This document shows positions 689 through 5,978 of a stretch of 6,148 nucleotides of DNA, in pieces. Positions within the stretch are counted from its first letter, which is position 1, and each line of letters opens with the position of its first letter. A program made the translations under genes and the position numbers. The DNA comes from Thermococci archaeon. Lineage in GTDB: Archaea; Hadarchaeota; B88-G9. The DNA is taken from positions 1 to 6,148 of the forward strand of contig QMUK01000068.1 in assembly GCA_003660555.1 (NCBI GenBank). The letters are read 5' to 3'. The notes below the pieces were generated by a model. It searched no databases and was not told where the DNA came from. It worked only from the letters and a program-made list of their open reading frames with translations.

Positions 689-696
689 TTCACGTG

Positions 697-1605
697 ATGT
701 GCAGAGAGTGTAAAGTCAGAGAAGCTAAGCTGTTCTCCAGGGGATCATGGCTTTGTGAAGACTGCTTTCTATACTCAGTTGAGAGGAGATTCAGAAAAAC
801 TGTCAGAAAGTACAGATTAGTGAGAGAAGGAGATAAAATAGCTTTAGCAATTTCTGGAGGAAAAGACAGCATATCAATGTTGGTCTTAATGTCTAAGATA
901 GCTGATGAGATGGGAATCCAATTAGCGCCATTTCATCTGAATTTGGACATGGGGGAATACTCAGAAAAAGCTGAGAAGATTTCTTTAAAGGTAGCGAAAT
1001 CTTTGGGGCTACATCTGGAAGTAGTGAGACCTACTGAGGAGCTAGAAGTCAAAATACGTAGAATGGGAAGAAGATCTGTCTGTTCAGTATGTGGAGCAAT
1101 CAAGAGATACTCCATGAACAAGTTCTCTAGGGAGATAGGAGCCAACAAACTAGCTACTGGTCATACTTTAGATGACATAGCCTCGATATTTCTCTTGAAC
1201 TTCTTAAATAGAAATTACGATTACATCAGGAAAATGGCTCCAATTTCTTACGGAGCGGGGAAGATGGTAACCAGGATAAGACCTCTATACTACATAACAG
1301 AGTTCGAAACTAAGAAGTATCTCGAACTCCAGAACATAGCGTACCTCAAGGAGAAATGTCCACACTCGGAGGGAGCTAAGACAATAGAACTGAAAAAAGT
1401 GTTCGAGAATCTAGAGGAACTCGTCCCAGGATCTAAGGCATCTTTTGTTAGGTCAATGAGGAGAGTAATAGGATACGAGCCAGAAGTAGCTGAGGTTCTA
1501 GAGTGCAGGATCTGTGGAGAGCCGACTTCCTCCAAGGACAGGATATGCTCAGTTTGTAGGATGAGAAGGCCTCAGAGCCGATCCGTATCATCACAGTCAG
1601 ATTAA
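697..1605 (+). CDS. ttuA: TtuA/NcsA-family tRNA 2-thiolation enzyme
   Basis: The 302-residue product is a PP-loop ATPase of the TtcA/TtuA/Ncs6 group, which adenylates a tRNA uridine and replaces its 2-oxygen with sulfur. It has an N-terminal zinc site (C2, C5, C20, C23), the ATP-pyrophosphatase loop SGGKDS (53-58), the catalytic cysteine pair CSVC (C129, C132), the LATGHTLDD block (152-160), a third conserved cysteine in EKCPHSEGA (C221), and a C-terminal zinc site (C270, C273, C284, C287). C129, C132 and C221 correspond closely to the three [4Fe-4S] ligands of Thermus TtuA, which makes 2-thiolation of U54 in the T-loop of thermophile tRNAs the best guess; the related U34 enzyme NcsA is the alternative. 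The start is ATG 697, set by AGGAGGGG; GTG 694 is a close alternative. The stop codon directly abuts that of the convergent GTPase gene. The last dozen residues are a Ser/Arg-rich tail outside the domain. Confidence 0.85.
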   Translation: MCRECKVREAKLFSRGSWLCEDCFLYSVERRFRKTVRKYRLVREGDKIALAISGGKDSISMLVLMSKIADEMGIQLAPFHLNLDMGEYSEKAEKISLKVAKSLGLHLEVVRPTEELEVKIRRMGRRSVCSVCGAIKRYSMNKFSREIGANKLATGHTLDDIASIFLLNFLNRNYDYIRKMAPISYGAGKMVTRIRPLYYITEFETKKYLELQNIAYLKEKCPHSEGAKTIELKKVFENLEELVPGSKASFVRSMRRVIGYEPEVAEVLECRICGEPTSSKDRICSVCRMRRPQSRSVSSQSD

Positions 1606-2139
1606 CTATGACTCCTCATCGGCCATCTCCTCAAGTATTCTATACAGAAGAGTTAAGACCACCTCCTTAACACTTTCCTTGTCTTTGGCTATACAGGGAA
1701 CGACATGCTCTTCGCCCATTACCTCCCTTACGTCCTCTGGGGGGATAGCATTTGGTAAATCCTGCTTATTCGCAGCAACTATGTAAGTTATTCCCTCTCT
1801 TTTCAGAGCATCTGCTATCTCTTTACCCTCAGCTAAACTCCTCTCATCTGTACTATCTACGAGAACTACTGCGCCTAGGGCACCTTCTTTGAGTAAGCTA
1901 GTCATGAACCTAAATCTGTCTTGTCCTGGGGTTCCGAATATGTATAGCACGAGCTCCTCGTCCACAGTAATCCTTCCGAAATCCATAGCCACAGTTGTAA
2001 ATTCTTTTCCCCCTTTCGAGATCTCATCTGGATTAGTCATCCGCTTTTCAGTCGTTATGGGATCTATCTCGGATATTCTGCTTATGAATTCTGTTTTTCC
2101 AGACGAAAATGGCCCAGTAACTATTAATTTCACTTTCAA
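1606..2139 (-). CDS. Small Ras-like GTPase, CvnD/COG2229 type
   Basis: The 177-residue product is a single-domain G protein. The P-loop is GPFSSGKT (9-16), switch I holds EFTTVAMDFGRI (47-57) with the conserved threonine, G3 is FGTPGQDRF (68-76), G4 is NKQD (124-127), and the G5 region is VPCIAKDKESVKEV (147-160). The MDFGRI and GTPGQDRF strings are hallmarks of the group that includes Streptomyces CvnD proteins, where the usual G3 aspartate is replaced (here Gly69), and related to MglA-type switches that work with Roadblock partners. There is no lipidation motif or membrane segment, so it is probably cytosolic or recruited by a partner. It is the last gene of a minus-strand operon: its TTG start lies one base past the stop of the preceding gene, with GGAGG seven bases upstream. 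A Roadblock protein is encoded two genes earlier. Cellular role (polarity, trafficking, signalling) cannot be read from sequence. Confidence 0.88.
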   Translation of the reverse strand: MKVKLIVTGPFSSGKTEFISRISEIDPITTEKRMTNPDEISKGGKEFTTVAMDFGRITVDEELVLYIFGTPGQDRFRFMTSLLKEGALGAVVLVDSTDERSLAEGKEIADALKREGITYIVAANKQDLPNAIPPEDVREVMGEEHVVPCIAKDKESVKEVVLTLLYRILEEMADEES

Positions 2140-2140
2140 G

Positions 2141-2566
2141 TTAGATCCTCCGTATTTTATCTATTATTTTCATTAGTTGCTTTTTAGTAATGGGGAACTT
2201 GCTCTCTCCCACATCTCTCTCTTTCCATTCTATCAGGTAATCGCCTGAGAGTTCCTTGGCTATCTCCAGTTCTCTCTCTGTGAACAAATATATGGATACT
2301 TCGTACTCTTTGTAAGTCCTCTCTTTTTTGATAGATTCCAAAGCTTCATCTCCCTTTAGCTCCCTCCTTCTAAGATATCTTGATACCGCTATGGGGTGCG
2401 ACACCTCGAATAGTATTTGGATATCATCGAAACCTTTACCACCAAATCCAAAGACCCTCACATATCCCGTGAACTTCCTAGGTATCAGTTTCATGACGTC
2501 TGTCATTAGATTTCTTCCAAATTCCTTCTTGAAAGTTTTAAGGTGAGTCCCTCTCGGGAGTAGCAA
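2141..2566 (-). CDS. Unknown 141-aa protein between Roadblock and GTPase genes
   Basis: I do not recognise this protein with certainty. It is soluble, with no signal peptide, membrane segment or cysteine. Its middle, GYVRVFGFGGKGFDDIQILFEVSHPIAVSRY (34-64), reads as a run of beta strands, followed by a charged helix (KGDEALESIKKE) and a lysine-rich C-terminal helix ending KIIDKIRRI. The GYVRV plus GDEALESI arrangement faintly recalls archaeal DUF2226 or DUF4388-type modules, but that is a loose impression. Its place between the Roadblock gene and the GTPase gene corresponds to the place of CvnC (DUF742) in Streptomyces conservons, so an adaptor or effector of the GTPase is a reasonable inference. 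The TTG start at 2566 is supported by GAGGGGAG a few bases upstream. The gene follows the Roadblock gene by 51 bases and precedes the GTPase by one. Confidence 0.7.
   Translation of the reverse strand: MLLPRGTHLKTFKKEFGRNLMTDVMKLIPRKFTGYVRVFGFGGKGFDDIQILFEVSHPIAVSRYLRRRELKGDEALESIKKERTYKEYEVSIYLFTERELEIAKELSGDYLIEWKERDVGESKFPITKKQLMKIIDKIRRI
2147..2151 (-). promoter_or_regulatory. Shine-Dalgarno supporting the TTG start of the GTPase
   Basis: On the minus strand GGAGG lies seven bases before the TTG at 2139-2137. It sits inside the last codons of the preceding gene, so the two are probably translated in a coupled way. Confidence 0.7.
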
Positions 2567-2617
2567 ATAGCTCCCCTCTAAGAAGTAGAAGCGAAAACGT
2601 CATTGAAACCAAGACTA

Positions 2618-2986
2618 CTACAATACTTCCTTTATTCTATCAGCGGCCCTTCTCATGTCTAGGAATAGGAGACCAAGTTTTACATCCTTGCTAGCTATTG
2701 TCACTAAAACGGCCTCCTTTCCGACCTCAGATATTACTACGTATCCCTTGTCTCCTCTAACGTATACTTCACCGAAGGCCCCTCTGTTTAACTCCCCAGT
2801 AACTCTCTCCCCAAGGCTGAGAATAGCTGCAGCCATTGCAGCAACTCTATCTTCCTCTATTCCAGCAGGCAGTGCTGAAGCTATCATTAGACCATCCCCA
2901 GAAACTAGACAGGCCCCTTCAACCCCAGGAACGGTATTCCTGAATTCCTCCAGGACTTCCTGTATTACGTTCGTCTTGCTCCCCAA
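2618..2986 (-). CDS. Roadblock/LC7 domain protein (MglB/CvnB-like)
   Basis: The product from the chosen start has 122 residues and is one complete Roadblock/LC7 domain: an N-terminal helix (NVIQEVLEEFRNTV), the strand pair around GVEGACLVSGDGLMIASALP (21-40), a long Ala-rich helix (EEDRVAAMAAAILSLGERV, 44-62), strands EVYVRGDKGYVVISEVGKEAVLVTIA, and a C-terminal helix (LGLLFLDMRRAADRIKEVL). Such proteins dimerise and act as GTPase-activating or scaffold partners of MglA/CvnD-type GTPases; one is encoded downstream in this operon. I prefer TTG 2986 because GGGGTGA lies five bases before it and the domain starts right after. ATG 3019 would add 11 hydrophobic residues, has no ribosome binding site, and would use up much of the divergent promoter; it could still be a leaderless start. 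Confidence 0.85.
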   Translation of the reverse strand: MGSKTNVIQEVLEEFRNTVPGVEGACLVSGDGLMIASALPAGIEEDRVAAMAAAILSLGERVTGELNRGAFGEVYVRGDKGYVVISEVGKEAVLVTIASKDVKLGLLFLDMRRAADRIKEVL

Positions 2987-3041
2987 AGTGGTCACCCCAA
3001 AGATTATCACATTGAACATTAAAAATGTTTAGGGGGGAAAC
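2987..3041. promoter_or_regulatory. Divergent promoter region with a symmetric AT-rich core
   Basis: Only 55 bases separate the starts of the two divergent Roadblock operons. At its middle is AACATT-AAA-AATGTT (3015-3029), an exact inverted repeat that is also the only AT-rich, TATA-like stretch for both strands. It could be a shared TATA element read in both directions or an operator controlling both operons. For the plus strand, AGGGGGG (3031-3037) is the ribosome binding site of the gene at 3042. If the TATA core serves the plus gene, its mRNA would be nearly leaderless, which sits uneasily with that site. Confidence 0.45.
2992..2996 (-). promoter_or_regulatory. Shine-Dalgarno deciding the Roadblock start
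   Basis: GGTGA on the minus strand, five bases before TTG 2986-2984. No comparable site precedes the alternative ATG at 3019. Confidence 0.5.
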
Positions 3042-3404
3042 ATGAAAGAGGTCATAGAGAGACTAGTAAAGGACTCTCCAATTTATTTGTCTATCTTAGT
3101 GGATAGGAAGGAGGGTTTACCCGTATTATCTTCCCAGGAGGGAGAGGTAGACATAGAGAAAGTATCGGCCTACTTCGCGAGCGCTGTAGACGAAATCATA
3201 AAAGCAACTCAATGTTGTGAAACTGGAGACACAGTAGAAGAGGTTTTAGTCACCACTTCGAATAACTACGTAATACTCAATCCCATTGGGGAGAGATTTG
3301 TCTTGGTATCCATATTAGAAAGGGGAGAGAACCTAGGAATAGCTTCCCTTATGTCTAAGAGGTGTGCATCAAAGCTATTAGGGAGGCTTGAGGAAAGATG
3401 GTGA
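3042..3404 (+). CDS. Second Roadblock/LC7-like protein
   Basis: The 120-residue product has the Roadblock/longin-like order of elements: helix (MKEVIERLVKD), strand pair (YLSILVDRKEGLPVLSS, 15-31), long helix (VDIEKVSAYFASAVDEIIKATQ, 36-57), strands EEVLVTTSNNYVILNPIGERFVLVSIL (66-92), then the final helix (NLGIASLMSKRCASKLLGRLEE). It is clearly different from the divergent Roadblock protein at 2618-2986 and shares little beyond the fold, so the two may form a heteromeric set and not be recent duplicates. Two adjacent cysteines (C58, C59) lie in the loop after the long helix. ATG 3042 follows an AGGGGGG site. Its end overlaps the next gene by seven bases, pointing to coupled translation. Likely role: partner or regulator of the small GTPase encoded nearby. 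Confidence 0.75.
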   Translation: MKEVIERLVKDSPIYLSILVDRKEGLPVLSSQEGEVDIEKVSAYFASAVDEIIKATQCCETGDTVEEVLVTTSNNYVILNPIGERFVLVSILERGENLGIASLMSKRCASKLLGRLEERW

Positions 3405-3916
3405 AGATAAAAGATCTATCCAACAAAATACTAAGTGAAGCTGTGGGATCTACTCAGTATGCGATAATCCATAGAAATGGAACCGTAATATACTCTAACC
3501 CAAGAGAAGGAGTTGACATTTCACCACACTTCACTGAGGCCATCAGAGCATCTAGGGTAGCCTTTAACAGAATATCCCCGGGAGGAGAAATAAGTCTCGT
3601 AATACAGAAAGAGGTCAAAAGTGTAGTAATAAGAGAAATTCCAAAGAGAACATGTTATCAAATTTTAATCACAGAAGGATCCCCATTTTTAGCCTTGGCC
3701 TCTCTAATGAGATATGAGGAGGAAGTTTCTTCTCTAATTCCGGAGGAAACCTCTACTCCAGAGATAGTACATCACTTGTCCGAGAAGTTCTCACTGTATC
3801 CGAAGGAGGTGGCCAATAAAGTATTGGAGAGATTGAAAAAAGAAGAAGAGAAAGGCAGAAAGATGAGCGAAGAAGAGATACTGGACCTAGTGTTGGCCGA
3901 ATCTAAGGTGCAGTAG
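3398..3916 (+). CDS. Degenerate Roadblock-like protein with charged helical tail
   Basis: The 172-residue product has two parts. Residues 1-107 follow a Roadblock-like pattern: N-terminal helix, strands YAIIHRNGTVIYSN (21-34), helix around SPHFTEAIRASRVAFNRI, strands EISLVIQKEVKSVVIREI and TCYQILITEG, and a helix at SPFLALASLMRYEEE. Residues 112-172 are a polar, Glu/Lys-rich helical tail (PEIVHHLSEKF, EVANKVLERLKKEEEKGRK, SEEEILDLVLAE) that could be a small helical or coiled-coil interaction module. The family call is tentative because the signature glycines are poorly kept. ATG 3398 overlaps the preceding gene by seven bases; GTG 3401 is an equally placed alternative. The stop codon directly abuts the stop of the convergent methionyl-tRNA synthetase gene. 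The co-transcribed Roadblock gene suggests the two proteins pair. Confidence 0.65.
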   Translation: MVKIKDLSNKILSEAVGSTQYAIIHRNGTVIYSNPREGVDISPHFTEAIRASRVAFNRISPGGEISLVIQKEVKSVVIREIPKRTCYQILITEGSPFLALASLMRYEEEVSSLIPEETSTPEIVHHLSEKFSLYPKEVANKVLERLKKEEEKGRKMSEEEILDLVLAESKVQ

Positions 3917-5902
3917 TCACGTTACCTTTGCTCCGGGAGGAGAGTCTTCCGCTGTTACAAGGAATACCTTCCCTTTGGATTCGGCTGCTAGGATCATTCC
4001 CTGAGACTCGACTCCACGTATTTTCTTTGGTTTTAGATTGGCTACTATTATCAATTTCTTGCCTATTAAGTCCTCTGGATCATACTGGTCTCCTATTCCA
4101 GCCACTATAGTTCTTTCTGAACCGGATCCCAAGTCTACCTTGAGTAGAATTAGTTTGTTTGTTCCCTCAATTCTCTCAGCTTCCTTAACTACACCAACCC
4201 TCAAATCTATTTTCTTGAAGTAGTCTATGTCTATTGTTTCCTCCTCTACTAACTTCTCCTCCTCTAATCCAAGTAATTTCTTCTCTCTGAGAACTTCCTC
4301 ATCGGTTATCTTTCTGAAGAGTGGCTTAGGCTCCTTAGTAACTCTTAACCCATCTATAGAGATTGGGGCCCACCTAGCCTCGTGGACTTCTCCATCTAAG
4401 TTCAACATTCTCCATATTTCGCTAGCTGTCCTAGGTAAGTAGGGTGCTAGCAGGACAGAGAGATTCGCTACTATATAGGAGCAGTTCCTGATCACCCTTG
4501 CTACTTCTTCCATTTCACCCCTCTTCACCCCCTCCCAAGGTTTTCCCTTGTCAAAGTACTTGTTTCCAAAGCTAGCAAGCTCCATTACTTTCTTTAGGCC
4601 CTGCTTTATCTTGAAGTTCTCTATGTCCTCCCCAACTTCTTCAAAAGTCTTTTCAACTATTTCAGCAACTTCTCCTTCTATCTCTCCTTCTGGTAGTACT
4701 CCATTGAAGTATCTCTTTAGGAAAACCAGTGTTCTGTGGACGAAGTTCCCGAGCACGTCGTTCAATTCGGTATTCACTCTCCTTTGAAACTCCTCCCAGG
4801 TGAAATCGAAGTCCCTGCTCTGCGGAGAATTTATCAAGAGAGTGTATCTCATGAAATCTGGGTTTTCAAACCTCTTAAGGTATTCATTTAACCATATGCC
4901 CCATTTCCTACTTGCAGAAGCTTTCGTACCACATATTATGACGTACTCATTGGCTGGAATTTGCCATGGGAGGTTGTATCCTCCGTGAGCCAATAGCATC
5001 GCTGGCCATATAATGGCGTGGAAGGGAATGTTGTCCTTGGCGATGAAGTGTACTATTTTGGATTTAGGATCCATCCAGAACTCCTTCCACTTATCAGGCT
5101 CCCCAATCTTTTCAGCCCATTCTTTAGTCGAGGATATGTATCCTATCGGAGCTTCAAACCAAACATATAGGACTTTGTCCTCTTCTCCAGGAACTTTCAC
5201 TCCCCACTCTAGATCTCTGGTAATTGCTCGATCCTTTAAACCTTCTTTGATCCAACCAAGGCAGAAGTTCACTACGTTGGGCTTCCAATGTTTATTCGAT
5301 TTTATCCATCTTTCCAACTCATCTTGAAAGGCAGATAATTTGAAGAAGTAGTGCTCGGTGTCTCTTAGAACAGGCTTCTCACCGCAGATTGCGCACCTAG
5401 GGTTAATCAGGTCAGAAGGCTCTAATATTCTACCGCAGTTGTCGCATTGATCTCCTCTTGCACTCTCAAAACCGCAATATGGGCAGGCACCCTCTACGTA
5501 TCTGTCAGGGAGAAATCTCTTGCAGTTCTCGCAGTACATTTGCTTTACTTTCTTCTTGTAGATATACCCCTTTTCCTTCACCTTCAGGAAGAACCTCTTC
5601 GCAGTTTCATGGTGTATTTCTCTGGAAGTCCTAGAGAAGTTATCGAAGCTTATATGGAACCCATCGAATCCATCCTTTATCTCCTTGTAGTAGTGGTCCA
5701 CCAGCTCTTTTGGGGAGATCCCCCTTCTCATGGCCTCTATTTCATTGGGAGTTCCGTGCTCGTCTGTGCCGCAGATGTATATGACATCATTTCCTTTCAT
5801 TCTGTGGTATCTGGCGTATACGTCAGCTGGTATGTAAACTCCTCCAGCATGACCGATGTGTCTCGGGCCGTTGGCATATGGTAAAGCGGCGGTTACTAGT
5901 AT
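3917..5902 (-). CDS. metG: Methionyl-tRNA synthetase with fused C-terminal tRNA-binding domain; start codon anomalous
   Basis: This class I synthetase charges tRNA-Met with methionine. Numbering from the ATA codon at 5902 (661 residues), it has ILVTAALPYANGPRHIGH with the HIGH motif at 15-18, CGTDEHGTP just after, two zinc knuckles (C124, C127, C141, C144 and C153, C156, C170, C173), a KMSKS-loop variant KASAS (327-331), an anticodon-binding helical domain, and from about 559 an EMAPII/Trbp111-type OB-fold domain (IDYFKKIDLRVG to the end). The first ATG in frame (5800) would remove the HIGH motif and cannot be the functional start. Yet no ATG, GTG, TTG or CTG lies in frame between that ATG and the upstream stop at 5944. 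Either ATA at 5902 initiates, or one base is missing in the GGG/AAA run at 5908-5913, in which case GTG 5916 would begin the protein. The stop abuts the preceding convergent gene. Confidence 0.9.
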   Translation of the reverse strand: MLVTAALPYANGPRHIGHAGGVYIPADVYARYHRMKGNDVIYICGTDEHGTPNEIEAMRRGISPKELVDHYYKEIKDGFDGFHISFDNFSRTSREIHHETAKRFFLKVKEKGYIYKKKVKQMYCENCKRFLPDRYVEGACPYCGFESARGDQCDNCGRILEPSDLINPRCAICGEKPVLRDTEHYFFKLSAFQDELERWIKSNKHWKPNVVNFCLGWIKEGLKDRAITRDLEWGVKVPGEEDKVLYVWFEAPIGYISSTKEWAEKIGEPDKWKEFWMDPKSKIVHFIAKDNIPFHAIIWPAMLLAHGGYNLPWQIPANEYVIICGTKASASRKWGIWLNEYLKRFENPDFMRYTLLINSPQSRDFDFTWEEFQRRVNTELNDVLGNFVHRTLVFLKRYFNGVLPEGEIEGEVAEIVEKTFEEVGEDIENFKIKQGLKKVMELASFGNKYFDKGKPWEGVKRGEMEEVARVIRNCSYIVANLSVLLAPYLPRTASEIWRMLNLDGEVHEARWAPISIDGLRVTKEPKPLFRKITDEEVLREKKLLGLEEEKLVEEETIDIDYFKKIDLRVGVVKEAERIEGTNKLILLKVDLGSGSERTIVAGIGDQYDPEDLIGKKLIIVANLKPKKIRGVESQGMILAAESKGKVFLVTAEDSPPGAKVT

Positions 5903-5978
5903 CCTCTCCCTTTCACCGAACCTATCACCCGAGGCGAAGACTTATACATCTAAGACTTAAAGTTTTCCGGGCTCTCTC
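5903..5978. promoter_or_regulatory. Divergent promoter region between metG and amidohydrolase gene
   Basis: TTATAC (5942-5947) is TATA-like for the plus-strand gene and would start transcription near 5971, about 8 bases before the TTG. On the minus strand TATAAG at the same spot (5946-5941), or TTTAAG at 5962-5957, could serve metG. The octamer AAGACTTA occurs twice, at 5937-5944 and 5952-5959, 15 bases apart. No ribosome binding site precedes TTG 5979, fitting a nearly leaderless mRNA. All assignments are positional. Confidence 0.4.

Follow-up and report, generated by a model that had tools for sequence, protein, structure and literature searches.

MglB acts on the small GTPase MglA as its Roadblock regulator, of the GTPase-activating protein (GAP) or guanine nucleotide exchange factor (GEF) type. 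Eukaryotic signalling relies centrally on platforms of several Roadblock proteins for small GTPases, such as Ragulator and TRAPP, whose prokaryotic roots have been sought mainly in the Asgard archaea. A single MglA with more than one regulator has precedent in the bipartite GAP complex of MglB and a second protein, RomY (PMC9481161), and Group 3 MglA systems have one or two MglB (PMC4316618). Group 5 (and 1) bacterial MglA systems include PATAN/DUF4388 together with an MglB-type Roadblock (PMC4316618). The stretch considered here, the window, is the complete 6148-bp contig QMUK01000068.1 (G000:C82) of a 1.30-Mb archaeal assembly estimated as 91% complete. It carries an island of five genes for an MglA-family GTPase, a protein with the N-terminal domain of DUF2226 and two or probably three Roadblock proteins, which an earlier note, made from the sequence alone, had likened to a Streptomyces conservon. 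It looks like a genuine, ordered archaeal signalling module, a variant of the known GTPase-Roadblock kind and not a conservon copy, because GTPase, Roadblock and DUF2226 genes also occur together in another archaeal phylum. The features of the island are:

1606–2139, minus strand: GTPase, small, MglA family, 177 amino acids (aa); TTG start, with a Shine-Dalgarno (SD)-like GGAGG immediately upstream
2141–2566, minus strand: p4, DUF2226 N-terminal-domain protein, 141 aa; TTG start
2618–3019, minus strand: RB1, Roadblock/LC7 protein 1, MglB-like
3020–3041: divergent intergenic gap of 22 bp with an adjoining AT-rich stretch; candidate shared promoter region, read from the sequence
3042–3404, plus strand: RB2, Roadblock/LC7 protein 2, 120 aa; GGGGGG-type SD ahead of the ATG
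3398–3916, plus strand: p7, 172 aa; probable Roadblock-like domain (residues ~1–95 to 111) and a C-terminal helical tail

The layout was confirmed in the sequence: two divergent operons, in the order RB1, p4, GTPase on the minus strand and RB2, p7 on the plus strand, with just 22 bp between the ATGs of RB1 and RB2, much as the earlier note had described a divergent island with a short shared intergenic region. RB2 and p7 overlap by 7 bp (3398–3404). The true start of RB1 may be a GTG or TTG some 25–40 bp inside the annotated open reading frame (ORF), because a GGGGTGA stands just 5' of a TTG and homologues start there.

The GTPase has Pfam matches to ATP_bind_1 (1e-17) and Ras (1e-9). It is a small single-domain protein with intact G1, G3, G4 and G5 motifs (GPFSSGKT, FGTPGQDRF, NKQD and CIAKD), and its G3 reads TPGQ without the DxxG aspartate, the residue that is replaced in the G3 of MglA. 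RB1 is, judged by its sequence, certainly a Roadblock: the Pfam match to Robl_LC7 (PF03259) is at 1.2e-20 and 73.5 bits, with a gathering cut-off of 23, and the best PDB match is 7f8m, a Thorarchaeota Roadblock (E 5e-36). Among the sequences compared, it is closest to Roadblocks of the f40 family, from large, GTPase-rich archaeal genomes (53% identity), and it is 47% identical to Roadblocks of two other genomes considered below (G037 and G059). RB2 is a well-supported Roadblock in profile comparisons, with a Pfam match to Robl_LC7 just above the cut-off (1e-5, 25.7 bits against 23), an hhalign probability of 95.3% and an hmmsearch value of 2e-13. The third, p7, has no Pfam match above chance and an hhalign probability of 0.2% against Roadblock, and no credible homologue was found in 61 genomes. 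Its single-sequence AlphaFold model (mean predicted local distance difference test score, pLDDT, 52; predicted template modelling score, pTM, 0.37) has the element order of a Roadblock, a-b-b-a-b-b-b-a, and the first 48 Foldseek matches in the PDB are all Roadblock, MglB, LAMTOR or dynein LC7 chains; with VIA-align, Z reaches at most 7.4 and PAS folds are mixed among the matches. The model makes p7 a probable third Roadblock. The domain calls of the earlier note were therefore borne out by Pfam for the GTPase, RB1 and RB2, while that for p7 is supported only by a low-confidence fold model.

The small protein between RB1 and the GTPase, previously listed as unknown, can be given a name. Against a profile of DUF2226 N-terminal regions, p4 scores 95.5–95.9% in hhalign (E ~1e-8), rising to 97.4% (E 1.5e-11) when homologues from the f16 family of the other archaeal phylum are added, with shuffled controls at 1.4% or less (50 shuffles). 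Its best pairwise matches are the DUF2226 proteins of the f16 operons described below (E 5e-6 to 3e-5), and a paralogue at the end of contig G000:C19 in its own genome is a 30% match. The region of DUF2226 past the N-terminal domain is missing, and Pfam finds no match in the p4 sequence, including none to full-length PF09987 above its gathering score. Since only the N-terminal domain is present and there is no Pfam match, p4 is on profile grounds a DUF2226-N domain protein and not a full member of PF09987. The identity came from the DUF2226 profile; a single-sequence search of 41 genomes gave only chance matches in unrelated proteins, and comparisons with solved structures and folds gave no meaningful match (model pLDDT 60). 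Two other candidates for p4 were rejected: DUF742, the CvnC domain of conservons (no Pfam match at E<=1; hhalign 0.0% against a real CvnC), and PATAN/DUF4388 (PF14332; no Pfam match; hhalign 0.1%).

Recurrence was assessed by counting neighbours within 2.5 kb of each match. A Roadblock neighbour was found for at least 30 of the 71 best GTPase matches and at least 20 of the 83 DUF2226 matches. The window and three further genomes (G061, G226 and G243) have the trio of GTPase, Roadblock and DUF2226, and a search of the phylum of those three added two (G252 and G255, with DUF2226, PF09987, confirmed by Pfam in both), for a total of five genomes in the other phylum. In G255 the operon reads GTPase-Roadblock-DUF2226-Roadblock, with two Roadblocks. 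Beyond the trio, DUF2226 adjoins a MinD-type P-loop gene (GKGGxGK; MinD by motif only), a Roadblock, or both in many other archaeal families. The genome of the window itself has a second run, Roadblock-Roadblock-DUF2226, at the start of contig C19 (L130, 1–1065), ended by the contig edge; Pfam support for its Roadblocks is weak or none, and they match a custom Roadblock profile at 5e-8 and 5e-11. A search of 5.39 million papers for DUF2226 by name found nothing, though such a search would miss any description under arCOG numbers or in other papers, and its link to GTPase and Roadblock appears to be the new, undescribed part of this system.

Two further observations concern these neighbourhoods. 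Genes of ~144–168 aa adjoin DUF2226 and MinD-type genes at many loci (L107, L172, L174 and L180, for example) and match none of the profiles applied; they may be further divergent Roadblocks. At L027 (4402–8247) there is an operon of a Roadblock, a KaiC-GTPase fusion, two more KaiC-like ATPases and a TPR-like protein, likely an archaeal signalling array.

The explanation favoured here, with moderate confidence, is a GTPase switch module, in which the MglA-family GTPase is controlled by Roadblock dimers and DUF2226 serves as adaptor or sensor. The intact GTPase motifs, the Roadblock domains, the identity of p4, the trio operons and the Roadblock-Roadblock-DUF2226 run on C19 all support it, as do the Roadblock neighbours of the GTPase matches, the DUF2226 genes adjoining MinD/FleN-type ATPases and/or Roadblocks, and the MglA-MglB, RomY and Group 3 precedents. 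The GTPase would cycle between GTP and GDP forms under the control of the dimers; RB1, canonical and MglB-like, would most likely be a homodimer that binds it directly as GAP or GEF; RB2 and p7, translationally coupled, would most likely form a second platform, probably heterodimeric, that modulates or localises the switch; and the DUF2226 protein would tie the switch to an input or output. Binding between the products, the GAP or GEF roles, the RB2:p7 pairing, the output and a common complex are what we infer for this module. The view of the earlier note that one archaeal GTPase is encoded with several Roadblock-type proteins stands, and a multi-subunit regulator is plausible. As to output, the leading guess is regulation of a surface structure, of polarity or of a pilus, since many archaeal type IV pilus loci contain Roadblock genes (PMC4858521) and MinD/FleN-type ATPases are frequent neighbours of DUF2226.

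Several points weigh against this explanation. Nowhere outside this genome was the five-gene set found complete; in the recurrence check put forward by the earlier note, it is the GTPase-Roadblock-p4 trio that recurs. In the f16 trio operons the GTPase lies C-terminal to a KaiC-type ATPase domain in one protein, whereas that of the window is unfused. No GTPase or Roadblock matches were found in the 27 genomes of the same phylum that were searched, and the assignment of p7 depends on a low-confidence model. It might also be that two unrelated operons simply stand back to back, GTPase-DUF2226-RB1 on one side and, on the other, an RB2-p7 pair for a different NTPase, for example a MinD/FleN-like ATPase encoded elsewhere in this genome (G000:C137), which is 59% identical to its homologue in G029. 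Both RB2 and p7 are highly divergent, neither is found with the trio elsewhere, and GTPase-free Roadblock clusters do exist: two related genomes, G037 and G059, conserve a divergent set of four Roadblock genes that are unlike one another, three on the minus strand and one on the plus (L120, 4938–6707, and L127, 2980–4758). Yet the start codons are only 22 bp apart, which makes shared control likely; G255 has an operon of four genes in which a second Roadblock joins the GTPase trio; and RB1, RB2 and p7 are adjacent, with two or three of them sharing a fold. An accidental pairing of operons is considered unlikely. The conservon likeness drawn in the earlier note fares worse. In a real conservon, on a plasmid of Streptomyces anulatus (L222), an ATP-binding protein in the CvnA place is followed by a Roadblock, DUF742 and a GTPase. 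In the window RB1, as a Robl_LC7 protein, can stand for CvnB, but there is no ORF in the contig for a kinase such as the histidine-kinase-like sensor CvnA, as the note had itself remarked, and the island is flanked instead by TtuA-like and MetRS genes. Membership was rejected on the CvnA and CvnC (DUF742) features: with the CvnA-place protein and DUF742 both missing, the window is not a conservon, although the module may work in a conservon-related way. A derived form could still be imagined, a cvnB-cvnC-cvnD set from Actinobacteria that lost its kinase and gained Roadblocks, given the matching order of Roadblock, small protein and GTPase and the many actinobacterial relatives to which the GTPase is 40–46% identical, among them plasmid GTPases annotated in a conservon setting. 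Besides the missing kinase and a p4 that is DUF2226 and not DUF742, however, the GTPase is nearer to Anaerolineae GTPases beside PATAN, RB1 is closest to archaeal Roadblocks (53%) among the sequences compared, and the trio recurs in archaea. A reduced archaeal conservon is thus largely refuted, and is regarded as very improbable.

Where the GTPase came from is a separate matter. The gene could have been acquired recently by horizontal transfer from a bacterium of Chloroflexota type, replacing another switch NTPase in a resident archaeal Roadblock-DUF2226 module. The closest named relatives, at 55–59% identity, are all from Anaerolineae, three in number (L055–L057), each with a gene for a DUF4388/PATAN protein directly upstream; conservon-type actinobacterial GTPases reach at most 46%, and the best value in 247 archaeal genomes is 44%. 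In a 60-row tree the GTPase groups with the Anaerolineae (support 88/76) and lies outside the set with Streptomyces CvnD (95/95), in a tree whose reference sequences represent fewer than all five MglA groups. The lack of the GTPase in the same-phylum relatives is in keeping with such a gain. Against it, the approximately unbiased (AU) test does not reject a grouping with archaeal GTPases (p 0.405), the archaeal matches that span most of the protein are for the larger part long-branched KaiC fusions, and the composition of the window is native. The horizontal signal, not significant in the AU test, is suggestive, and a recent transfer is possible but somewhat less than probable. Since it concerns origin, it is compatible with the switch module.

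The island is bounded on both sides by convergent housekeeping genes:

694–1605, plus strand: gene for a TtuA/NcsA-like tRNA sulfurtransferase; convergent, abuts the GTPase operon
from 3917, minus strand: MetRS gene; convergent, abuts p7

The best matches of the MetRS (53% and 52% identity) are in two archaeal genomes of the same phylum, and the tetranucleotide correlation between the window and the rest of the genome is 0.969. Given an archaeal MetRS and a native composition, a mis-binned contig is unlikely, and contamination of the bin was dismissed as unsupported. The MetRS frame stays open 5' of its first in-frame ATG (5800) over 5800–5944 on the minus strand, across the class I signature region (PYANGPRHIGHAGG), until a stop; this upstream extension has no ATG, GTG or TTG, so that either the start codon is an unusual one or the assembly is faulty here. 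At the other contig edge (3–254, plus strand) is a C-terminal fragment of a V4R-domain protein (Pfam 20 bits, below the cut-off). In G040 (L029) a V4R-like gene, recognised by eye, stands ahead of genes for a KaiC-GTPase fusion and a Roadblock, so that V4R may be part of this signalling network too.

One GTPase with two or three unlike Roadblocks and a recurrent DUF2226 partner, in a small non-Asgard archaeal genome, would make a minimal and testable platform, and the cluster yields a first functional hypothesis for DUF2226. More broadly, DUF2226 plus Roadblock could regulate P-loop switch NTPases generally in archaea, as a system not described so far. It would serve MinD/FleN ATPases and KaiC-GTPase fusions as well as, in the window, a stand-alone MglA-type GTPase that has up to three Roadblocks, and a Ragulator-like GTPase platform built on several Roadblocks would then exist outside the Asgard archaea. 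This proposal is tentative, and we hold it a little short of probable.

Set beside known systems, the window shares with the Streptomyces conservon (CvnA–D, Group 2 MglA) the order Roadblock, small protein, GTPase, and departs from it in having no CvnA kinase, a DUF2226 domain in place of DUF742 and a GTPase at most 46% identical. The archaeal clusters of DUF2226 and MinD/FleN ATPase likewise have DUF2226 beside a P-loop NTPase with a regulatory role, in some cases along with a Roadblock, but the NTPase is an ATPase and not a GTPase and the DUF2226 protein is usually longer. The G037 and G059 cluster resembles the window in its several unlike, divergent Roadblocks and differs in having no GTPase or DUF2226. 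In loci of the Group 5/1 type (Anaerolineae L055–L057, Thermus L221, Deinococcus L223), a stand-alone MglA-family GTPase adjoins a gene for a small regulatory domain, as here; the Thermus and Deinococcus loci also have a Roadblock, and the highest GTPase identity to the window is found in this set. The partner in Anaerolineae and Thermus is DUF4388 (PATAN), however, not DUF2226, and there are no multiple divergent Roadblocks. The Thermus example, on a plasmid of Thermus brockianus, is an operon of DUF4388, GTPase, two protoglobin-domain genes, a Roadblock and an EAL-domain gene, which suggests that gas sensing and cyclic di-GMP are tied to an MglA-type GTPase there. The f16 operons (G061, G226, G243, G252 and G255) are compact and combine GTPase, Roadblock and DUF2226 genes, like that of the window, and include the best pairwise matches of p4; they differ in that the GTPase forms the C-terminal portion of a KaiC fusion of ~405–415 aa, in the order GTPase-Roadblock-DUF2226 and in that no p7 homologue was found. 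These f16 operons and the Thermus plasmid operon (DUF4388-GTPase-...-Roadblock) are nearer to the window than is the conservon.

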